DNA of 64,000 nt. Origin: Methanobacteriota archaeon (GTDB lineage: Archaea > Halobacteriota > Methanomicrobia > Methanomicrobiales > Methanoculleaceae). The stretch lies in assembly GCA_016841955.1 (NCBI GenBank), contig JAENYE010000001.1:694025-758024 (forward strand). The letters are read 5' to 3'. The notes under the pieces are model-generated. The model did no database searches. It saw only the letters and a program-made list of their open reading frames with translations, and was not told the origin of the DNA. Positions 2,117 through 61,066 of this stretch are shown in pieces (position 1 is the first letter of the stretch; the number at the start of each line of letters is the position of its first letter). Made by a program: the position numbers and the translations under genes.

Positions 2117-4213
2117 ATGCCGGAGAGAATGTTAACCGAATCTGAGGGATATCGCCTGCTGGACTCGTGCGGGATACCTGTGCCGCCCCACCACCTGGCT
2201 ACCAGCGCCGGCGATGCACGGGCGGCCGCAGGGCGGATAGGCTACCCCGTCGTCATGAAGGTCATCTCTCCGCAGATCGTCCACAAAAGCGACGTCGGCG
2301 GAGTCATCACCGGGATCGAGGGGCCCGATGAGGCTGAAGAAGCGTTCCGGGCTATCATGCAGAACAGTGCCGCCCGGGCCCCGGAGGCGAAGGTCGCCGG
2401 TATCATCGTGGAGAAGCAGATGCCCGGAGGACTCGAGGTGCTGATCGGCGGGAAGACCGACCCGTCGTTCGGGAAGGTCATCACGTTCGGTCTCGGAGGG
2501 AAACTGGTGGAACTCCTTGAAGACGTCTCCATCCGCATGCTCCCCGTCACCGACGACGAGATCCGCAGGATGATCCGGGAGATCGAGGGCTACCGGCTCA
2601 TCCGGGGATACCGGGGAGAGCCCCCGAAGGACGAGGAGGCGCTTGTCCGCATCATCGCCGCGATGGCACAGAACTTCATCGAGGACCCGCGAATCCGGGA
2701 GTTCGACTTGAACCCGGTCATCGTGTACGAGGAAGGAGCCAGCGTCGTCGATGCGAGGATCATCGTAGGGGATACCGCCGGGGGCGAGGCCGCCCGCCTC
2801 AGGGTCCGGGCACCCCCGGATATCTTCTACCCGGACTCCATCGCCGTGATCGGCGCCTCCGCAAGCCCGAACAAGGTTGGCTACTCCGTCCTCCGGAACC
2901 TGCTCTCCTTTCCCGGGAACCTCTATCCGGTCAACCCGGCGCGGACGGAACTCTTCGGGCGAAAGACATACCCTTCCGTGAAAGAGATCCCGGGCCCGGT
3001 CGACTGGGCGGTCATCGCCGTGCCGGCCCGCCTCGTCCCGGGGGTGATGGAGGAGTGCGGGGAGAAAGGCGTCAGGCTCGCTGTCATCGTCACCGCCGGG
3101 TTCCGCGAGATCGGCGGCGCCGGCGCGGCCCTCGAAGAGGAGGTCGTGACGATAGCAAAACGGCACTCTATCCGGATCATCGGCCCGAACTGCCTCGGGA
3201 TCATGATGCCGCACCAGGGGATCAATGCCACGTTCGACCCGGTCTCGCCGAGGGCCGGGGACGTCGCCTTCATCTCCCAGAGCGGCGCGATCATCACCAC
3301 CGTCGTCGACTGGAGCCTCCCGGAAGAGTTCGGGTTCTCGAGCGTCATCAGCGTCGGCAACCAGGCGGACCTCGGGTTTGAGCACTACCTCAGGTTCGCC
3401 GAGCAGGACCCAAAGACCCGGTCGGTCACCCTGTACGTCGAGGAGATCCAGGACGGGCGCGGTTTTGCGCAGATCGTGCGTGAGGTCGCCGGGAGAAAGC
3501 CGGTGGTGGCGGTGAAGTCCGGGTCGTCCCGGAAGGGCAAGGCTGCGGCATCGTCCCATACCGGCTCGCTTGCCGGGAGTTACGATGTCTATGTCGCGGC
3601 GTTCAGGCAGGCGGGGGTGATCCCGGCCAGGAGCCTGCGGGATGCCTTTAACCTGGCGGAACTCCTGGCGTCCGAGGGCTGCCCGCGGGGAAAGCGCGCG
3701 ATCGCCGTCACCAGTGCGGGAGGGTTCGCCGTCCTCGCCTCCGACTACGCCGAGACGCACGGGGTCGATATGGTCGACCTCCCTGAAGACGTGCTTCGTG
3801 AACTCAACGCGTTCCTGCCGCCGTTCTGGAACCACGCGAACCCCATGGATATCCTCGGGGATGCCGACGCCACGCGGTTCGCCGCTCTCTTCGACGTGCT
3901 GATCCGGCACCAGGACTTCTGGGATATCGCGTTCGTGATCGCCGTGCCGACCACGCTCGTCGATCCGGCACACGTTGCAAATGAGATCGTCCGGTTCTCC
4001 CGGAACACGAAGAAGATGGTGGTGGGCTGTATGCTTGGCGGCGACAGCATCAGGAGCGGCCTGCGCATCCTCCGGGGTTCCCGGATCCCGAACTTCTCGG
4101 AGCTTGAGGATGCGTTCAAGGCGGTGGGAAGCATCCTTGAGGTCAGGGCCGCATGGCAGGGTGAGCGGTCCCGCCTGCCCCACGACGACCGTTATCCGGG
4201 CGGCGGACAGTAA
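2117..4213 (+). CDS. ADP-forming acyl-CoA synthetase, fused beta-alpha form
   Basis: 698 residues. Residues about 1-225 are the ATP-grasp (beta) part, with IVHKSDVGGV (His56) near the nucleotide-binding region. Residues about 235-690 are the CoA-binding and ligase (alpha) part, with the GASASPNKVGYSVLRNL nucleotide/CoA-binding motif, GPNCLGI, and SSHTGSLAG near residue 481, which carries the histidine expected to be phosphorylated in this family. The enzyme class interconverts acyl-CoA, ADP and phosphate with acid, CoA and ATP. In a methanogen it probably handles acetyl-CoA or branched/aryl acyl-CoA from 2-oxoacid oxidoreductases. GAGGG six bases before the ATG supports the start. Domain order beta-alpha in one chain differs from the separate subunits of Pyrococcus. 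Confidence 0.93.
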   Translation: MPERMLTESEGYRLLDSCGIPVPPHHLATSAGDARAAAGRIGYPVVMKVISPQIVHKSDVGGVITGIEGPDEAEEAFRAIMQNSAARAPEAKVAGIIVEKQMPGGLEVLIGGKTDPSFGKVITFGLGGKLVELLEDVSIRMLPVTDDEIRRMIREIEGYRLIRGYRGEPPKDEEALVRIIAAMAQNFIEDPRIREFDLNPVIVYEEGASVVDARIIVGDTAGGEAARLRVRAPPDIFYPDSIAVIGASASPNKVGYSVLRNLLSFPGNLYPVNPARTELFGRKTYPSVKEIPGPVDWAVIAVPARLVPGVMEECGEKGVRLAVIVTAGFREIGGAGAALEEEVVTIAKRHSIRIIGPNCLGIMMPHQGINATFDPVSPRAGDVAFISQSGAIITTVVDWSLPEEFGFSSVISVGNQADLGFEHYLRFAEQDPKTRSVTLYVEEIQDGRGFAQIVREVAGRKPVVAVKSGSSRKGKAAASSHTGSLAGSYDVYVAAFRQAGVIPARSLRDAFNLAELLASEGCPRGKRAIAVTSAGGFAVLASDYAETHGVDMVDLPEDVLRELNAFLPPFWNHANPMDILGDADATRFAALFDVLIRHQDFWDIAFVIAVPTTLVDPAHVANEIVRFSRNTKKMVVGCMLGGDSIRSGLRILRGSRIPNFSELEDAFKAVGSILEVRAAWQGERSRLPHDDRYPGGGQ

Positions 4214-4242
4214 CGTCTATTCCCCCTCCGTATTCCCGGAAA

Positions 4243-4252
4243 CCTTTTATAT
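4243..4252 (+). promoter_or_regulatory. TATA element of the MBL-rhodanese gene
   Basis: CCTTTTATAT lies in the 104-base gap before the next gene. Initiation would fall near 4275, leaving a leader of about 40 bases that contains the GGGAG ribosome site at 4303-4307. Confidence 0.55.
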
Positions 4253-4317
4253 GCCTCTCCCGTATTCCGGCGCATCGGAACGGGGGACGGGACCCATCAC
4301 CCGGGAGATGAATACGG

Positions 4318-5688
4318 ATGCTGTTTGAGAAGATAAAATCCGAGATTCTTGCTCACAATTCATATGTCATCGGGGCGGGCGGAGAGATGGCGGTCATCGA
4401 TCCGAGGCGTGACTGCCAGGTCTACGCGAACATCGCCGAGCACGAGAACATGAAGATCACGAAGATCTTTGAGACGCATAAGAACGAGGACTATGTCATC
4501 GGCTCGCGGGAGCTCGCCCGTCCGACCGGGGCGGAGATCTTCCACGGGGCACGGGAAGAATTCGGGTTCGGCACCCCTGTCCGGGAAGGGGAGACATTCA
4601 GGCTCGGTCCCCTCGAGCTTGAGGTCCTGGAGACCCCCGGCCACACCGCAGAAAGCATATCGCTCCTGCTCCGTGACCGATCCGTCTCCGACGACCCGTT
4701 GATGGTCTTTACCGGCGATGCGCTCTTTGCCGGTGATGTCGGGAGGACCGATCTCGCCGGCGAGGACCGGCGGCGGGAGATGTCGGAGATGCTGTATGCG
4801 AGCCTGCACGAGAAACTTCTCCCGCTCCCCGACGGCGTGATCGTCTGCCCCGCCCACGGCGCCGGTTCGGTCTGCGGCGGGAATATCAGCGACCGGGAGT
4901 ACACGACCATCGGGTTTGAGGCGGCGACGAATCGGCTGCTCTCGATGGAGAGGGAAGAGTTCGTCGAGTACAAGGTGAGCGAACGGCTCTACGAGCCGCC
5001 GTATTTTACGGTGATGCGAAAACTCAACCGGGAAGGCCCGCCCCTGATCTACAACCTGCCGCACCTGCGGGCCTATACGGCCCGGGAGCTACGATCGCTC
5101 CTGAACCAGAAGGCGCAGGTCGTCGACATCCGGTCTCCGACGAGCTTCGCCGGCGGACACATCCCCGGGACCATCAACATCTGGCGGAAAGGCCTTCCCC
5201 TCTACATGGGTTACTACTTGAACTACGAGGATCCGATCGTCCTCGTGGACGACTTCAACCTGGACATGGATCACGTGGTGCGCCACTTCGTGAGGCTCGG
5301 CTACGACAACATCGCGGGATACCTCTCGGGCGGGTTTCCGGCCTGGTTCAAGCAGGGTGAGGAGATCGAGAGGACCGGCACCTGGTCCTCCTCCGACCTT
5401 GCGGAGCACCTGGACGACCCGCCGGTCTGGGTTCTCGACGTGCGCAACGTCAACCACCGGGAGGAGGACGGCCACATCGCGGGCTCCCACCATATCTACG
5501 TCGGGCAACTCGAAGAGCACCTGGCGGAGATCCCGGAGGAGAAGCAGATCGTCGTCCACTGCGACGCCGGGTTCAAGGGGAGCCTCGCGGCAAGCATCCT
5601 CCAGAAGCACGGGTTCCGGCACGTCATCAACCTGCTCGGCGGCACCATCGGCTGGGAAGCGGCGAATTATCCGCTGGTTAAGGACTGA
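4318..5688 (+). CDS. persulfide-dioxygenase-like MBL protein with two rhodanese domains
   Basis: 456 residues: metallo-beta-lactamase fold (about 1-240), rhodanese domain 1 (about 255-345) and rhodanese domain 2 (about 358-455). The family oxidises glutathione or low-molecular-weight persulfides and moves sulfane sulfur. The usual HxHxDH motif reads ETHKNEDY, so the second His is Asn56 and the last is Tyr59. The three positions matching the iron ligands of human ETHE1 are kept: His54, His109 (TPGHT) and Asp134 (FTGD). Rhodanese 1 lacks its cysteine; rhodanese 2 has HCDAGFKGS with Cys415. This suggests a mononuclear-iron enzyme with one active sulfurtransferase domain, but activity is inferred. 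ATG at 4318 follows GGGAG by 10 bases. Confidence 0.88.
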   Translation: MLFEKIKSEILAHNSYVIGAGGEMAVIDPRRDCQVYANIAEHENMKITKIFETHKNEDYVIGSRELARPTGAEIFHGAREEFGFGTPVREGETFRLGPLELEVLETPGHTAESISLLLRDRSVSDDPLMVFTGDALFAGDVGRTDLAGEDRRREMSEMLYASLHEKLLPLPDGVIVCPAHGAGSVCGGNISDREYTTIGFEAATNRLLSMEREEFVEYKVSERLYEPPYFTVMRKLNREGPPLIYNLPHLRAYTARELRSLLNQKAQVVDIRSPTSFAGGHIPGTINIWRKGLPLYMGYYLNYEDPIVLVDDFNLDMDHVVRHFVRLGYDNIAGYLSGGFPAWFKQGEEIERTGTWSSSDLAEHLDDPPVWVLDVRNVNHREEDGHIAGSHHIYVGQLEEHLAEIPEEKQIVVHCDAGFKGSLAASILQKHGFRHVINLLGGTIGWEAANYPLVKD

Positions 5689-6644: not shown

Positions 6645-8810
6645 TCAGGTGATAGGTTCCGGCGATTTCCCTGTCGACCTTACGAGCCGCAACATCTCGT
6701 CGGGATCGGTCGTCGGGATGTCGCAGGCGTAGTTGGTGCAGACGTATGCCGTCGCCCTCCCTTCGACCATCTCGATATCCCGGGTAAACCCGGCTATCCC
6801 CACAATCTCCGGGCTCTCCTCGTCGGCGGGGCGGAAGATGACGATAGCGTCGGGTGCATAGTGCGACCGGATGGCGCTGACCATCGCTTTTGTGTCCTCC
6901 GCGCCCGGGACCCCGGATATGATCACCTCGAAGTTCGGCCCCAGCATGAACTCAAGGCCGGTGAGGAAGTGGGCGTAGGCGGGAGGGGACTCGCCAACCG
7001 TATCGGCAAAGACCTGCCGCATCCGCTCGCTCGTCTCCTCGAGTTCGAGGTTCGCCGTCATCCGGCCGAGGGCGAAGAGGGCATACATGGCCACGCTGTT
7101 GCCGGAGGGTATCGCCCCGTCATAGACCGGTTTCTGGCGGACGGGGACGTCACTGTCGTCCGGCACAAAGAAGAATCCTCCATGGTTGCAGTCCCAGTAG
7201 TGGGCGACGAGATCCCGGGAGAGTTCTGTGGCGGTCCGGAGATAGCCGGGGGAGAACGATGCCTCGTAGATCTCGATGAGAGCCCAGATCATGAACGCGT
7301 AATCGTCGAGGGTCGCCGGCAGGCCGGCCTCACCGTTCCGGTAGCGGTGGAGGAGCCGCCCGTCCGGCCGGCGAAGATTGGCGAGGACGAACGCGGCTCC
7401 CCTCTCCGCGGCCGCCAGGTAATCCGGGTCGTCGAAGACCCGGGCCGCCTTTGCCAGGGCGGCGATCATGAGGGCGTTCCAGTCGGTGAGGATCTTGTCG
7501 TCCTTCCCCGGGCGGACCCGCTCTTTTTGGGCTGCAAAGAGTTTCTGCCGGGCCCCCTCCACGAACCACGCCAGGTCCTCTTCCGAGGTCGAGAACACGT
7601 GGACCCAGGATGCCAGAGGGCGCCGCAGGCGGAGGATGTTTTTGCCCGTCTTCCTCCCGCCGGGCTCCTCCCGGTAGTTGCCGGGATCCGTGACGCCGAA
7701 GATCCGGGAGAACCGCTCCCCGTCCTCTTCCCCGAGGATCCGGAGGATCTCGTCCTTCGTCCAGACGTAGAACTTCCCCTCCTCGCCCTCGCTGTCCGCG
7801 TCCTCCGCCGAGTAGAAACCACCGCCCGGATCGGTCATCTCCCGCATGACGTAGGCGATCACCTCCCGGGCGGTCCTGGCGAACTCCTCCCTCCCTGTCG
7901 CGAGGTAGGCCTCCGTATATGCTACGACGAGAAGCGCCTGGTCGTAGAGCATCTTCTCGAAGTGCGGGACGAACCACTCCGCGTCCGTCGAGTAGCGGTG
8001 GAACCCATAGCCGAGCTGGTCGAAGAGCCCGCCCCGTCGCATGGCATGCAGCGTCTTCTCGACCATCGAGTACGCCGGCTCCTTCCCGGTCCTGTTCCCG
8101 TACCGGAGCAGGAATATGAGGTTGTGCGGGGTCGGAAACTTGGGTGCATCCCCGAACCCCCCGTTCTCCCCGTCGAAGATCCGGAAGAAGGTATCGTAGG
8201 CCTCATCAAGGGCCGCTTCGGAGAGCTCGCTCTCCCCGGGAGGGGTGCGGGCAGCGCTCTGCAGCGCTTCCAGCACCTGGTCGCCGGCGCTCTCGAGTTC
8301 CTGCCGCTGGCTCTGCCAGATCTTGTTGATCCGGGGGATGAGGTCCAGGAGACCCGTCATCCCGTAGCGGCTCTCCTTTGGGATGTAACTCGCTGCAAAG
8401 AACGGTTTTTGGTCGGCGGTCATGAAGATGGTGAGCGGCCATCCTCCGGCCCCGGTCAGCGTGTGGGCGGCCGCCATGTAGACCTGATCGATATCCGGCC
8501 GCTCCTCGCGGTCAACCTTGATGCAGACGAAGACGTCGTTTAAGAGTTTCGCGACCTGCGGGTCTGCAAACGACTCTTCCTCCATGACGTGGCACCAGTG
8601 GCAGGCCGAGTAGCCGATGGAGAGGAATATCGGTTTGCCCTCCTCCCGCGCCCGGAGAAAAGCTTCTTCACCCCAGGGATACCAGTCGACGGGGTTATGG
8701 GCGTGCTGGAGTAGATATGGGCTCTGTTCTCGGATCAGCCGGTTCGGTGGCGATTCTTCCCGCACCGGCGCTCCTGGCGCTTCCGGGTCGTGTCCGCGTG
8801 CCGGGTTCAT
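6645..8810 (-). CDS. thioredoxin-fold/six-hairpin protein of the YyaL (DUF255) family
   Basis: 721 residues from the ATG at 8810. This start is favoured because AGGGGT lies just before it and a TATA-like CTTTATTAG is about 30 bases upstream; the frame runs 53 codons further upstream without conserved sequence. The N-terminal domain (to about residue 190) is thioredoxin-like with [10 protein letters not shown] (Cys70, Cys73). The remainder is the alpha/alpha-barrel typical of the family (SSP411/YyaL, spermatogenesis-associated protein 20). The biochemical role of the family is not settled. It seems monocistronic and points away from the Hsp20 gene's 3' end. Confidence 0.92.
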
Positions 8811-8965
8811 ACCCCTGACGTGCTGATGCAGGCTAATAAAGGTGACTCTTCCCGGCGGAAGAGTCGCTCCCGGAATGGAACCCCCCCCACTTTCACCGCC
8901 GGGGTGGAGAGTACCTGACGGCGCCCCGTGGAAAAAAGGGAAGAGATCCCGGCCGGTGGCCTTCT

Positions 8966-9268
8966 TCACTCCGCGATGGGGATCTCCTTCGTCTCCTCCG
9001 CGACCGGCTGTATATAGGGGACATCCACGGCAAGCAGGCCGTTCCTGAAGGTCGCCTTTGCCTTGTTGGTATCGACGGGACAGCCGACCGCGTAGGTGCC
9101 GACGTAGCGGACGTCGCCGCGGGACGCGTCGACGGAGAAGCTGGTCTCCTGCATCTTAAAGGTGATATCCTTCTTCTCAACGCCCGGCAGTTCAATCTCG
9201 ATGTGAAGATTCTCTCCGTTCTCATCCGAGTAAGCACAGACATAGGGTGCGACTCTCAATGCTGCCAT
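8966..9268 (-). CDS. Hsp20/alpha-crystallin small heat-shock protein
   Basis: 100 residues from the ATG at 9268, which follows AGGAGG by eight bases; an earlier in-frame ATG at 9301 lacks a ribosome site. The chain contains [18 protein letters not shown] and a late [12 protein letters not shown], the beta-strand signature (GxLxxxxP-like) of the alpha-crystallin domain. It is short, with almost no N-terminal arm and a brief C-terminal tail ending KEIPIAE, whose IPI matches the I-x-I oligomerisation motif. Expected role: ATP-independent holdase. A TATA-like element lies about 43 bases upstream. Confidence 0.9.
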
Positions 9269-11670: not shown

Positions 11671-12545
11671 ACGCCGGCCTCCTCGCGGGAAAGGCGCTGG
11701 ATGTTGTGTTCCACCTGCTGCCGCATCTCGTCAAAGACTTCAGGGCTCAGGTTCTTGAACCGGCCCTGGCCCTTGATATAGTCCTCGAGAGGCGCGGGTT
11801 TCTTCATCGCTGCCTTTGACGGCCCGCTGATCGCGAGTTTCCCGAACTCACGCTCGTAGAGGATCCACGTCCCGGTCTTCACCGCGAGTTTGCCCATCTC
11901 GACGGTCTTCTCCGTGGGGTAGCGCCACCCGGGCGGGCACGGCGCCAGGATATGGATGAACTTTGGCCCCTCGATCGAGAGCGCCTTCTTCACCTTCTTG
12001 TAGAGGTCGAGAGGGTAGGCGCTACAGGCGGTCGCCATGTAGGGGGGGTTATGCGCCTCGACGATCCGGTCGAGGTCCTTTTTGGCCGTGGGCTTGCCGC
12101 CGGGGGTCGTGGTGGTACGCGCCCCGAGTGGCGTCGAACCCGACCGCTGCATGCCGGTGTTGCCGTACGCCTCGTTGTCGTAGCAGATGTAGAGGAAATT
12201 GGTGCCACGCTCAAAAGCCCCGGAGAGCGCCTGGATCCCGATATCGACCGTCCCGCCGTCACCCGCGTAGACGATGACGTTGGTCTCTTTTCCGAGCGCA
12301 GCGAGCGCCTCGCTCATGCCGGAAGCGCAGGCGGCGGCTGCGGCAAACGCTATGTTATAGACGGGCACGTTCATCGCCGTACCGGGATACATCCCCTGGA
12401 TGACGCTGGTGCAACAGGCGGGCACGACCAGGACAGAGTCGGGGCCGGCGGCTTTGAGCACATAACGCAGGCACAGGGAAGAGCTGCACCCCGCGCAGGC
12501 GGACGTGCACTTATAGAGATACTCCTCCTTTGGAATCGCTGACAA
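11664..12545 (-). CDS. porB: pyruvate:ferredoxin oxidoreductase beta subunit
   Basis: 293 residues from a TTG at 12545, preferred because GAGAGGAG lies ten bases upstream and the protein then begins SAIPKEEYLYK, as in other PorB; an in-frame ATG at 12578 is the alternative but sits next to the TATA element. Motifs: CTSACAGCSSSLCLR and SVLVVPACCTS (cluster cysteines), YAGDGGTVDIG and NEAYGNTGMQRSG (thiamine diphosphate and Mg binding), APCPPGW. The C-terminal tail QGRFKNLSPEVFDEMRQ is typical of pyruvate rather than 2-oxoglutarate enzymes. First gene of the operon, so the order is beta-alpha-gamma-delta rather than the common gamma-delta-alpha-beta. Confidence 0.94.
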   Translation of the reverse strand: MSAIPKEEYLYKCTSACAGCSSSLCLRYVLKAAGPDSVLVVPACCTSVIQGMYPGTAMNVPVYNIAFAAAAACASGMSEALAALGKETNVIVYAGDGGTVDIGIQALSGAFERGTNFLYICYDNEAYGNTGMQRSGSTPLGARTTTTPGGKPTAKKDLDRIVEAHNPPYMATACSAYPLDLYKKVKKALSIEGPKFIHILAPCPPGWRYPTEKTVEMGKLAVKTGTWILYEREFGKLAISGPSKAAMKKPAPLEDYIKGQGRFKNLSPEVFDEMRQQVEHNIQRLSREEAGVC

Positions 12546-12563
12546 ATTGCTTACACTCCTCTC

Positions 12564-12574
12564 GTTTATATTTG
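12564..12574 (-). promoter_or_regulatory. TATA element of the por operon
   Basis: Reads CAAATATAAAC on the minus strand. Initiation would be expected about 25 bases downstream, close to the TTG at 12545, so the mRNA may have only a very short leader. Confidence 0.5.
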
Positions 12575-12735
12575 TCATCGGTTGTAATGAGAGTTTTGCG
12601 ATCCTGTTTCCGGACACCCGGTGGCCTTCCCGGGGAATGACCGGTAAAAGTATGTCAGAATGAAGTATGCGTCAAAAACGAGCCGGGGACGGAGTCCGGT
12701 TAAACCGGAGCCCTGCCCGTCCCCGTTATCCCTGT

Positions 12736-56922: not shown

Positions 56923-57765
56923 ACGTATCACCTTCCTTGGCTGTTGCCGGTTCTCCGTCTCTTTTCAGGAGGGAGAGCCCTGTGCATGCGATCACGATCC
57001 CGCGTGCGTTGTCGTGTGCAGACAGGTGACGGGTAGTATCACCGTTTCCCGGGTATCTCTGCTGTTCCGGATGCGCGTATACCTCGTGAACCGCTCTCAA
57101 AAGGGAAGAGCTGTCTGCAGGCGGTGTAGGGCGAAGATGTCCGCAGCATCAATGATCCCACGCCGCGGCAGGATAGAGGAGGGAGTATATATAGATGCCT
57201 GCAGCGGTTGCGGCAGATTTTGTGGGATTCCGGATTGGAAAACGAACTGCAGAGAACGGTTCCGTTCGGCCGGGGTAATGCCGGACTCCCTTCGTCCGCC
57301 GGCACGGCCACGAGAATCTCTATATCCATCAGGTCCGCCCGTTTTAAGGCCATATTCATTGCTACTTTTTCGTTCGGGGCTTCGAAGAGGACGGTGGTTG
57401 TCATCAATTCCGATAAAGGAGAAGATCGACTTCTCGATGCTTTTACCGTGAATGGTACGGAAACGTAAAGCCATTTTTATTAAATGAGCACCGCTCAGCG
57501 GATTTGAACCCCATTCTGGAGGCGTTCCAGAAGATGAGCATGGAACCGGAGATCGCACAGTGGTCTTCCTTCAACACGATGCATCAAGCTTAACTGTGGT
57601 GTAATGTGACATCATGTCCTTATGTGCGGCCCGGCAGGAATTAAAAATCACTTTCGTTCCACACGGCGCGGGAGGATTTATCGTTTGATTACCCTATACG
57701 GCGAACGGGAAACGGTGCTTTTACTTGAAGAGCCTCGAGAAATAACATCCGGGAGTTAATAATTC
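56923..57765. other. intergenic region with one gene fragment
   Basis: Apart from the GYD-like fragment at 57170-57404 no gene is supported. A TATA-like GGAGTATATATAG occurs at 57180-57192 with nothing convincing downstream on either strand. 57480-57765 shows no recognisable feature except GGGAG before the immunity gene. Confidence 0.4.
57170..57404 (-). pseudogene. GYD-like domain fragment
   Basis: From an ATG at 57404 the minus strand reads MTTTVLFEAPNEKVAMNMAL and KRADLMDIEILVAVPADE, which resembles the C-terminal half of GYD-family proteins. After that the frame continues without protein-like character. There is no conserved N-terminal half, so this looks like a truncated remnant. Confidence 0.4.
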
Positions 57766-58257
57766 ATGAAAAAATACAGCAAGCAGGACCAGATATCGAT
57801 GGCGACCTGGGCTGCGGACTGCGCCGAACGGGTGCTTGGGCTCTTTGAGAAGGCGTATCCGGAGGACGACCGGCCGCGCAAGGCCATCGAGACGTGCCGG
57901 ACGTGGGTCCGTACGGGCGTATTCAGGATGGACGAGATACGCGGAGCTTCTCTTGGGGCTCATGCCGCCGCCCGCGATGCGAAGGAAAATGATGCAGCCT
58001 GCTTTGCGGCGCGAGCCGCGGGCCAGGCGGTGGCGACTGCGCATGTCCCCCAGCACGCCTTCGGGGGCGCTTACTATGCCCTCAAAGCCGTCGCAGCGGC
58101 TGATCCGGCGAATGCCGGGGTTAATGTTGCCGGGGAACGCGATTGGCAGTCGCAGCGCCTTCCTGAGGGTCTGAGGGAGGAGATAATGAGTAAAATTGTT
58201 ATTCAGGAACTTGGGGGCGGGGTTTCTGTTAAACTGCGGAAGGGGGAGGGTTTTTGA
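57766..58257 (+). CDS. putative immunity protein (Imm-5-like)
   Basis: 163 residues; GGGAG ten bases before the ATG. The sequence MATWAADCAERVLGLFEKAY, PEDDRPRKAIETCRTWVRTG and AARAAGQAVATAHVPQHAFG matches an alanine-rich helical family annotated as putative immunity protein of polymorphic toxin systems. No toxin gene is visible near it, so it may be a solitary immunity gene or have another role. It marks the start of the accessory segment. Confidence 0.8.
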   Translation: MKKYSKQDQISMATWAADCAERVLGLFEKAYPEDDRPRKAIETCRTWVRTGVFRMDEIRGASLGAHAAARDAKENDAACFAARAAGQAVATAHVPQHAFGGAYYALKAVAAADPANAGVNVAGERDWQSQRLPEGLREEIMSKIVIQELGGGVSVKLRKGEGF

Positions 58258-58560
58258 CGGTTTCAGTTTTGTTTGTTATGATGTGGGGGGAGTTTTGACG
58301 TGGTGGGGGAAACGGTACCGGGGCGATCTTTCCCTTCATCGGTATACGGTCCTAGCATCCCATAGCAGGGAGTGTCTTTCTGCCTTATGAGTATAAGTCC
58401 GGGGAACAGGGATATGTGAATTGGCGGGGATATTGAAGGCAAAACGTGACAATAAAACGTCACAAGATTCGATCTGAAGCGGTTACAGTATCCGACTTGA
58501 ATAAGGTAACAGATAAGGTGTTGGCGAGGATACTGGGGTTATGCTCATCGGAATGAGCAT
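58258..58560. other. boundary between GC-rich and AT-rich sequence
   Basis: No gene. A short inverted repeat (CGTGACAATAAAACGTCAC, about 58446-58464) is present. Base composition changes from GC-rich to AT-rich around 58400. Confidence 0.4.
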
Positions 58561-59004
58561 TTAAACCTCTATTTGAATAAATTTACCTGGGGCGCCTTTA
58601 TTGGGATCTAATTGGTATTTGAAAACTGAATCATCGATATATTGGAACGATTGCGGCGCAACAAAGTTCGAACTAAGCTTCTTGGGATCGATAGGCTCTT
58701 CAAACAATTCGAAATTGGTTATTTCTATCGCATATCCTTTATCTTTTCCAGAGAAGTACGCATAGAAGTCCTTCTTGGTTAGTCCAGAATACTCATTCAA
58801 TTGTGCCCATAGATTCTCTGGATGGTCATCGAGGATTTTCCCAATCCTAAATTTGCCGATAATTTTTTTCACAGGAGATGTTGAGTAAATGTAGACCTCA
58901 CAAACCGACCGATCTTTGAATATCACCTTGCGAAATTCGTATCTCTTTGTTCCACTGATAATTTTCCGAACGTGTTTTGGCTTAATGGACAGTATAACTC
59001 TCAT
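58561..59004 (-). CDS. ASCH-domain protein
   Basis: 147 residues from the ATG at 59004, seven bases after GAGGTG; the gene overlaps the end of the PIN-GNAT gene by 23 bases. ILSIKPKHVRKIISGTKRYE with FRKVIF is the conserved opening of ASCH domains (PUA-like, predicted to bind RNA or modified nucleotides), followed by YIYSTSPVKKIIGKF. It lies in AT-rich sequence unlike the neighbourhood, suggesting transfer together with its partner. Confidence 0.85.
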   Translation of the reverse strand: MRVILSIKPKHVRKIISGTKRYEFRKVIFKDRSVCEVYIYSTSPVKKIIGKFRIGKILDDHPENLWAQLNEYSGLTKKDFYAYFSGKDKGYAIEITNFELFEEPIDPKKLSSNFVAPQSFQYIDDSVFKYQLDPNKGAPGKFIQIEV

Positions 59005-60499
59005 TAATTCCACCTCGCTGCTTTACCCATGTGTACTTCGTATTATCGATTTCGGTGATTGATTGTGGTGCCCATGAGAGGACGTTAGCTCTTCTTAGCT
59101 CGTTGATTGTTACACTGTGTGGCAGATGGAAATGATGCCTAAATAGAATGACAGTCAGTGGCTTATTAGATCTTTCGATCGCGTCGTGAGAGTAAACACT
59201 TCTTTTCCCTATTATTCGAATGATCTCATCGGTGTCCGAAACATCCGGGAAGACATTGTCAACGACACCTATTGATGTTATTGCTTTATTGTCTCGTGAT
59301 CGGTAGAACAGGATGATATCTCCGGGCTCTATCTTTTTTATCCGGCTATGAGTCAGGTAAGCCTTTCGAATGGTGTTTCCCTCTATACCAAACTCTCCAA
59401 AGTGCTCGTAGATTTTCGTCTGTCTTCCTTTTGAAAAATCGGTGAATAGCAGGTTATGGAATTCTGGTTGGATGGGAACAATATATTTTTTAACCAGATC
59501 TCCATCATAAAAACTTGGGTAATATATCTGTGATACATGGGCTGGCGAAAGAGAGGAGATATCGTGTTCTCGGGCGCAGAGACTTTTCACGTAAACGTCC
59601 TCCTCCCTATTTTCATTTTGGAGGATGCTTGCTTTGCGAAAACCATATTCTGATACGAGATCGATAAGGCGATCCCCTTCAGGCTGAGTAAAGCGAGTGA
59701 GATAGATCTCGGTGATGTCATTTCTTAGTGCAATGTCTACCGAGATCTTCAAGAGCAGTTCACCGATTTTATACCCCACATGTTCAACCTTCATCGTCGC
59801 AATTTTCAACCGTTTCTTTTTTGGGAGGGGAGGAATCGATGGAATAGGCTCATCTTCAATCTTATAGATGAGAATAGCCCCAAGGCTCGCATCGGATCGT
59901 CTATGGATGTAGCATTCTCTCCCCTCTTGAGCCTTTTTTATGAACCATTCGTCGAATCCAGGGTAGTCCACTCTCAACGAGTCGAAGATTGGATCCCTTA
60001 GATCCAGATTGTGCATCCTATCTTTTACAAGCGCAGGAGGCGTGGGGATGATCTCTCGTGAGGGTAGGTACCTGTTGAAATCATGAACTGCTTCGGAGAT
60101 GAGAAATACACGTTCTCCAGCTCCTATTGAATGCGCCTTTTTGTGAATCCCTCTATCTTCAGTGATGAAAAATTCAACTGCATTTCTGTGCACAGCATAT
60201 AGGAGAGCATTATCGATGGCATCATGCGAATTTTTTGCGGGTCCGACGAGCTCACAAAACGATGTATCATTGTTAGGATCTGGTGGTCGCTCTAGATGGG
60301 AGTATGCCTCGATTTTCGAGAGGTTCACTTCTCTGCGCCTGATATCGGAGTCTCTTCGTAGCTCAGAAACTGAAAGAGGATGGATTACAAGTTCCGCTCC
60401 CAATTCGTTGAGTAATCGGAGCAGTTTGGCTAAGTCGTGCGAAAGGGCACGATCTTGTTCACGATAAATGAAGATATTGGTATCAAGTAATATCCTCAT
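58982..60499 (-). CDS. PIN-GNAT-EVE/PUA-like fusion protein
   Basis: 505 residues. Residues 1-145: PIN ribonuclease domain with LLDTNIFIYRE, a mid Glu in SVSELRRD, and DAIDNALLYAV plus FFITEDRGIHKKA, so all acidic metal ligands are present. Residues about 190-305: GNAT-like acetyltransferase fold with KIATMKVEHVGYKIGELLLK (acetyl-CoA loop region) and VSEYGFRKASI. Residues about 330-490: PUA/EVE-like domain with IEPGDIILFYRSRDNKAITS, IGVVDNVFPDV and ANVLSWAPQSI. ATG 60499 lies about 24 bases after an AT-rich TATA-like element, fitting leaderless initiation. The next gene (ASCH) overlaps its end. Function unknown; possibly defence or RNA-modification related. Confidence 0.82.
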   Translation of the reverse strand: MRILLDTNIFIYREQDRALSHDLAKLLRLLNELGAELVIHPLSVSELRRDSDIRRREVNLSKIEAYSHLERPPDPNNDTSFCELVGPAKNSHDAIDNALLYAVHRNAVEFFITEDRGIHKKAHSIGAGERVFLISEAVHDFNRYLPSREIIPTPPALVKDRMHNLDLRDPIFDSLRVDYPGFDEWFIKKAQEGRECYIHRRSDASLGAILIYKIEDEPIPSIPPLPKKKRLKIATMKVEHVGYKIGELLLKISVDIALRNDITEIYLTRFTQPEGDRLIDLVSEYGFRKASILQNENREEDVYVKSLCAREHDISSLSPAHVSQIYYPSFYDGDLVKKYIVPIQPEFHNLLFTDFSKGRQTKIYEHFGEFGIEGNTIRKAYLTHSRIKKIEPGDIILFYRSRDNKAITSIGVVDNVFPDVSDTDEIIRIIGKRSVYSHDAIERSNKPLTVILFRHHFHLPHSVTINELRRANVLSWAPQSITEIDNTKYTWVKQRGGINESYTVH

Positions 60500-60722
60500 C
60501 TGTCACCAACGAAGGTTTAAGGATTAGGTCATTAATAACCCTTCTTTATCTTTTCAGGCATCCAGAAACTGCTGAAGAGACATTATCGTTGTCATATGCG
60601 CCTTTTTTTAATCGTATTTGATAGTGAACCCATCTGATCCGAATTATCTAAAGGCATAAAGTGGGATCAAATGGGGCGCTCCTCTGATGAAAAAAATATA
60701 GGGACTTCGTAAAAAAATCACG

Positions 60723-60890
60723 TCATCTGCTCGTTGGACATCCTCTTCTTCGTAAACATATATCCCACAGGTGCTCTCGGCCGCCTGGCTCCGGGATCTC
60801 CGACCTTTCTTCACGGGCAGTCTTGAGCCAGAGGTCGACGGCCATCTTCACTTCGCGGAGCGCCCCCTCATCTCTCAGTATAACAGGCCA
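60723..60890 (-). pseudogene. HicB-like antitoxin remnant
   Basis: The minus strand reads WPVILRDEGALREVKMAVDL then WLKTAREERSEIPEP and a stop at 60723. The DEGALREVKMAVDLWLKTA...IPEP pattern matches the C-terminal half of HicB antitoxins. The N-terminal half and hicA are missing. Confidence 0.5.
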
Positions 60891-61066
60891 TCCTTCCAAA
60901 AGAATAGCTTATTAAATGGCCTCTCGTATTTCTCCAACACACTTGGATAGAGTGCATCGTATTTGATTTCATTCAAAAGTATATTGAACATAAACGGACC
61001 ATCCTCTGTTGTTCTATCATCATGCTCGGCATACAAGATGGAGGAAATTGTTTTAGATTGGGTAGG
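60875..61066 (-). pseudogene. C-terminal fragment of an unidentified AT-rich gene
   Basis: The minus strand reads SILYAEHDDRTTEDGPFMFN, ILLNEIKYDALYPSVLEKYE and RPFNKLFFWKDGLLY followed by TGA at 60875. This is coherent protein in a frame different from the HicB remnant, with no start codon context. Not recognised. It abuts the HicB remnant, so a deletion has probably joined two broken genes. Confidence 0.45.

Follow-up and report, generated by a model that had tools for sequence, protein, structure and literature searches.

The window analysed here, i.e. the whole stretch of 64 000 nt, carries on its minus strand two overlapping genes: a large one encoding a protein of 505 aa, in which a PIN, a GNAT-like and an EVE/PUA-like domain follow one another, and a small one encoding an ASCH protein. 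The first-pass annotation of this DNA had described the pair as AT-rich, and its G+C content is indeed 42.5%, compared with 61.5% in the rest of the window. The features of the locus are as follows.

57766..58257, plus strand: Imm5-like gene (Pfam PF21805, E 1e-41), at the edge of the insertion described below, a chromosomal neighbour
58561..59004, minus strand: ASCH gene, 147 aa, start ATG at 59004, predicted antitoxin, match to PDC-M11B
58982..59004, minus strand: dual-coding overlap of 23 nt, encoding the predicted toxin's tail NESYTVH-stop and the ASCH start MRVILSIKP
58982..60499, minus strand: PIN-GNAT-EVE gene, 505 aa, ATG start, predicted toxin, match to PDC-M11A
58985..59572, minus strand: EVE/PUA-like domain, residues ~310-505 (EVE, E 6.8e-4; best Foldseek match ZmASCH, E 6e-8)
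59010..59016, minus strand: Shine-Dalgarno-like GAGGTGG ahead of the ASCH ATG, within the predicted toxin gene (from the sequence)
59582..60028, minus strand: GNAT-like domain, residues ~158-306, with an unusual V-G-Y-K-I-G loop (Foldseek, hmmsearch)
60065..60499, minus strand: PIN domain, residues ~1-145 (PIN_3, E 0.0056), acidic ligands D6, E46, D96 and D115
60878..61033, minus strand: 3' remnant of a PD-(D/E)XK-like gene, last 52 codons (tblastn, E 2e-25)

Taken alone, the window proteins all score below the Pfam cut-offs (PIN_3, E 0.0056; EVE, E 6.8e-4; ASCH, E 0.065); their relatives give clear Pfam scores for PIN_3, Acetyltransf_1 (GNAT), EVE and ASCH. NCBIfam offers no family name for the 505-aa protein. 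Its AlphaFold2 model, built from 90 family sequences, is confident (pLDDT 91.9, pTM 0.74), and in Foldseek its middle part matches GNAT enzymes (NatC, PaiA and NatD, E ~1e-5), while the best match of the C-terminal domain is ZmASCH of the PUA superfamily (E 6e-8). The first-pass annotation had read GNAT-like and EVE/PUA domains in this chain and had pointed to structure prediction as a check; both the GNAT and the PUA fold are predicted, in agreement with the profile searches, e.g. with a match of the GNAT-like domain to Naa50 (hmmsearch, E 7.8e-5). The PIN assignment rests on sequence, since no PIN structure is present among the 50 Foldseek matches listed for the model. Acidic ligands had been claimed for it, and D6, E46, D96 and D115 are kept across the 66 PIN-bearing members collected (D96 and D115 in 66/66, E46 as E or D in 65/66), with D6 and D115 falling within the search patterns used to collect these members and E46 and D96 outside them. 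In the GNAT-like domain, K213, E215, K232, G242, G246 and E247 are nearly invariant in PIN-bearing and PIN-less forms alike. Its loop in the window, E-H-V-G-Y-K-I-G, lacks the strict acetyl-CoA signature R/Q-x-x-G-x-G/A and only G242 and G246 in it are conserved, so that acetyl-CoA binding is uncertain. The GNAT fold is present in the model, and acetyltransferase activity is putative.

The ORF list calls the ASCH gene at 58561..59013 on the minus strand (150 aa), starting from a GTG at 59013. This GTG lies inside the GAGGTGG motif, and the start is most likely ATG 59004, in the same frame: of the 159 pairs examined, which come from archaea, bacteria and lambdoid phages, 125 have an ATG at an overlap of exactly 23 nt. 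As it lies 23 nt before the end of the large gene's stop codon, the overlap, which the first-pass annotation had recognized, encodes both the end of the large protein and the beginning of the ASCH protein. A subset of Bacteroidota has an overlap of 4 nt instead. This conservation of the overlap geometry from archaea to lambdoid phages is a new observation. Purifying selection acts on both ORFs (dN/dS 0.15-0.21; ~0.18 for the PIN-GNAT-EVE gene), which are therefore real genes.

The ASCH protein was also modelled with confidence (63 family sequences, pLDDT 92.2, pTM 0.85). Profile comparison shows that it is related to the EVE domain of the large protein, and it weakly matches an L22-fusion model in NCBIfam. 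Its closest solved relative is ZmASCH of Zymomonas mobilis (PDB 5guq and 5gus; hmmsearch, E 2.7e-26; Foldseek, E 5e-13, TM ~0.8), which was studied alone and reported to be a Mg-dependent single-strand RNase (PMC5615036). Of the nucleic-acid/RNase residues of ZmASCH, Tyr47 and Ser128 correspond to Y40 (63/63) and S119 (61/63), whereas its Lys53 corresponds to K46, which is present in the window but is a lysine in only 26/63 family sequences. A second relative brings in a writer/eraser scheme of the DarTG kind, in which the GNAT domain would acetylate a base in RNA or DNA, e.g. cytosine at N4, and the ASCH protein would remove the acetyl group as an amidohydrolase. Indeed, N4-acetylcytidine is the substrate of an amidohydrolase of the ASCH type in Escherichia coli, YqfB, with the active site Lys21/Thr24/Arg26 (PMC6972931); K21 and R26 of YqfB have their counterparts in K20 and R25, which 63/63 sequences share. 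However, Thr24, the proposed nucleophile and essential in YqfB, is replaced by an invariant Glu23 (63/63), and the Foldseek match to YqfB (E 7.6e-3) is far weaker than that to ZmASCH. A YqfB-type deacetylase was thus ruled out for lack of the nucleophile, and the writer/eraser scheme as a whole is very unlikely. The closeness to ZmASCH and the absence of this nucleophile are further points new to this analysis.

Turning to the surroundings, the first-pass annotation was right in placing an immunity gene beside the pair, i.e. the Imm5-like gene, but this gene is found in most Methanoculleus genomes at ~80% identity, usually without the pair, and it is therefore a chromosomal landmark and was rejected as part of the unit. 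In different genomes, differing cargo is inserted at this site (57766-58257). In a sister genome, G030, the pair together with an intact PD-(D/E)XK-like gene and a gene for a BglII-like restriction endonuclease makes up ~4.1 kb after the Imm5-like gene, and in another genome, G005, the flanks of this insertion lie only 2 bp apart, representing the empty site. The location of the pair in a 4.1-kb insertion with an observed empty site is likewise new here. Window positions 57764-61033 are common to the block in G030 (84%). The PD-(D/E)XK-like gene, which is named after its PD...ExK motif and has no match in Pfam, PADLOC or the PDB, is intact in G030 (179 aa); the pair does not require it. In G030, it and the BglII-like gene lie upstream of the pair (L183:11418-11957 and 12175-12720), with no obvious methyltransferase beside the latter. 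The integrase remnant and toxin-antitoxin debris reported by the first-pass annotation were not recovered, as none was present near the pair in the 20+ ORFs scanned; the only debris seen there was the truncated PD-(D/E)XK-like gene at 60878-61033.

The family is patchily distributed. Among 232 genomes of the class, the PDC-M11A profile found the large gene in 22, belonging to 11 of 40 genera, compared with 34 for the ASCH gene (PDC-M11B profile). The closest named relative in a scan of public genome contigs was Methanoculleus sp. UBA430, which makes it probable that the window belongs to a Methanoculleus genome. Homologues keep the ASCH partner, a point on which the first-pass annotation had made its proposal depend: in public genomes and viral contigs, ASCH adjoins the large gene in 146 of 151 evaluable loci, and in the remaining five it is fused, truncated or nearby. 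Similarly, both genes of the phage version are present in all 275 E. coli genomes carrying it. The two proteins have also diverged together, mirror-tree correlations of their distances being 0.54-0.84 compared with shuffled maxima of 0.11-0.31. In the tree, Dehalococcoidia/Chloroflexota proteins are nested among those of methanogens (support 97), indicating transfer between domains.

PIN forms are common in cellular genomes and PIN-less forms dominate in viruses, where 10/80 loci have PIN, a contrast that is biased in that the two scans used different search patterns; the public-genome scan used closer sequences as query, so that its set is skewed in favour of members that carry PIN and have a conserved N-terminus. 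The same contrast was described by Bell et al. (PMC7641849), who proposed that the PIN forms protect the host from viral GNAT-EVE toxins by destroying acetylated tRNA. Apart from the bias, such a counter-module is at odds with the retention of the same conserved GNAT and EVE residues in the PIN forms, which also occur in virus psiM100 and on plasmids, and we regard it as extremely unlikely.

Several variations in architecture were encountered. In many prophages (L036, L040-L042, L046, L048-L051 and L053-L056, at ~7970-9030), GNAT and EVE are separate ORFs, their border being marked by an in-frame stop codon or by a stop followed at once by a start, which suggests that the two domains may be able to work as separate chains. 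A Halalkaliarchaeum plasmid (L017:8001-9502) carries PIN-GNAT and EVE ORFs with a 4-nt overlap near type I-B CRISPR genes, and on a Mesorhizobium plasmid (L018:7561-9874) ASCH genes flank the PIN-GNAT-EVE gene on both sides, with an AAA_17 ATPase downstream. Fusions of the ASCH protein include an HTH-ASCH fusion in Rhizobium and, in Euryarchaeota BL5_bin.6 (L124:11502-12401), one to a C-terminal HEPN-like domain that contains an RNRVAH motif, the gene being adjacent to one for PIN-GNAT-EVE. In an ANME-3 genome (L121:2348-4045), the ASCH protein is joined to an additional GNAT whose loop is canonical, to a nuclease-like middle part and to a further PUA domain. Two Methanomicrobia genomes have similar GNAT-X-PUA genes as separate neighbours of the predicted toxin (L192:11852-13114 and L193:11626-12894).

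The two genes are not lost alike. A further new observation is that ASCH often survives alone beside the last codons of the large gene, namely in three archaeal genomes (G052, G002 and G093), where 3'-end scraps of the predicted toxin gene lie ahead of orphan ASCH genes, and in phage psiM2. The latter is nearly identical to psiM100, which carries the whole predicted toxin; psiM2 retains its last 43 codons (100% identity) and ASCH, albeit with a C-terminus altered by a frameshift (loci compared: L003, psiM100, 2554-5346; L233, psiM2, 716-1209). A deletion in psiM2 is therefore a better explanation for the annotated 'inserted fragment IFa' of psiM100. In an additional genome, G010, the large gene is frameshifted at about codon 17 and ASCH is intact. 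An ASCH gene outlasting its partner is the pattern that would be expected if the large protein were harmful without ASCH. The last codons of the large gene may, however, persist only as carrier of the ASCH ribosome-binding site, and ASCH genes that stand alone could serve a function of their own, e.g. with RM systems.

The asymmetric retention of ASCH also bears on whether the pair is a defence effector that senses modification. Here, EVE and/or ASCH would read modified viral nucleic acid, with ASCH as the sensor or specificity subunit, and PIN, with GNAT, would attack viral or host RNA. The first-pass annotation had likewise proposed sensing of modified nucleic acid, a role suggested by the EVE/ASCH fold, both domains being readers of the PUA superfamily. 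The ASCH-HsdS and ASCH-HTH fusions and the proximity to type I RM and CRISPR described by Bell et al. (PMC7641849), as well as the type I-B CRISPR neighbours on the Halalkaliarchaeum plasmid, the restriction-type genes in the G030 insertion and the Rhizobium fusion, would fit such a role. However, we saw neither a methyltransferase nor a modification gene in the unit, defence against modified phage would be less natural in viruses, whose forms are mostly PIN-less (PIN in 10/80 viral loci), and the retention of ASCH suits an antitoxin better. A sensing effector is therefore rather improbable.

We consider it likely that the pair is a mobile two-gene unit of toxin-antitoxin type, belonging to the (PIN)-GNAT-EVE/ASCH family and serving phage defence or the maintenance of an element. 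This reading is based on the domain make-up, the conserved overlap, co-divergence, the patchy mobile distribution, the insertion by restriction genes in one relative, the survival of ASCH and purifying selection, and with it the original proposal of a defence or toxin unit agrees with both the literature and the present evidence. In the mechanism that we infer, covering toxicity, RNA target, acetylation, antitoxin mode and the trigger by infection, the EVE domain would bind an RNA that is probably modified and most likely a tRNA, an amine on this RNA or on the amino acid with which it is charged would be acetylated by the GNAT-like domain, and the PIN domain would add RNA cleavage, together stopping translation. 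The ASCH protein would be the antitoxin, made by coupled translation from within the toxin gene, and would silence the toxin most likely by binding it or by taking the same nucleic-acid ligand via its homologous PUA fold. On virus infection or loss of the element, release of the toxin would lead to arrest or death of the cell. Our confidence in the general toxin-antitoxin or defence reading is much higher than in the specific RNA target and in the way in which the antitoxin would act. Rather than by ordinary protein-protein inhibition, ASCH might act on the RNA target, either as an enzyme, which would remove the modification or degrade the modified RNA, or by mimicking the toxin's EVE domain as a ligand and competing for the modified base; we regard this as unlikely, but if true it would represent a distinct mode of antitoxin action that archaea, bacteria and their viruses have in common. 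Should the toxin be confirmed, the pair would be an archaeal, translation-targeting defence unit with an RNase and an acetyltransferase in a single chain. The family is widespread, being common to methanogens, their viruses and coliphages, and handles for testing it in archaea are provided by the 23-nt dual-coding overlap, by the empty insertion site and by the near-identical viruses psiM100, which has the toxin, and psiM2, which lacks it.

With regard to known systems, both genes match PADLOC profiles over their full length and in identical order, the large gene PDC-M11A (PDLC04422, E 6.2e-166) and the ASCH gene PDC-M11B (PDLC04424, E 1.2e-53); PDC-M11 itself is a phage-defence candidate only. 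Bell et al. 2020 (PMC7641849) described (PIN)-GNAT-EVE operons that are almost always accompanied by ASCH, occur near type I RM and CRISPR and include ASCH fusions to HsdS and to HTH; toxin-antitoxin roles were predicted, no module of the family had been characterized by then, and it was suggested that the role of ASCH may lie in DNA regulation or in the binding of modified DNA and not in neutralizing a toxin. The present pair resembles these systems in domain order, ASCH partner, archaeal and bacterial spread and defence neighbourhoods, whereas the AAA_17 ATPase, HTH and type I RM gene are all absent from the window flanks examined. PIN-less homologues are annotated as GevT toxin and GevA antitoxin in the record of Escherichia phage PhiR47_2 (PV340567.1), i.e. 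by annotation a GNAT-EVE toxin and an ASCH antitoxin with an identical 23-nt overlap. In contrast to the window protein, GevT lacks PIN, shares 27.5% identity over the common 350 residues and has a lambdoid prophage location. Our literature search found nothing relevant on PDC-M11, GevT/GevA or PhiR47. ORFD/ORF5 of the Methanothermobacter prophage psiM100 represents a full-length PIN-GNAT-EVE protein (37.8% identical) with an overlapping ASCH gene, although borne by a tailed archaeal virus. GNAT toxins of the TacT/AtaT type, which act on charged tRNA, share the GNAT fold and the two-gene layout but have a canonical CoA loop and neither PIN nor EVE. Their antitoxins are DNA-binding proteins, not ASCH proteins. 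Considering the PDC-M11 matches, the study by Bell et al. 2020 and the GevT/GevA record, the architecture, the pairing and the proposed role were already known, and it is well supported that the pair is a further example of a catalogued toxin-antitoxin or phage-defence candidate family, not a new kind of system.
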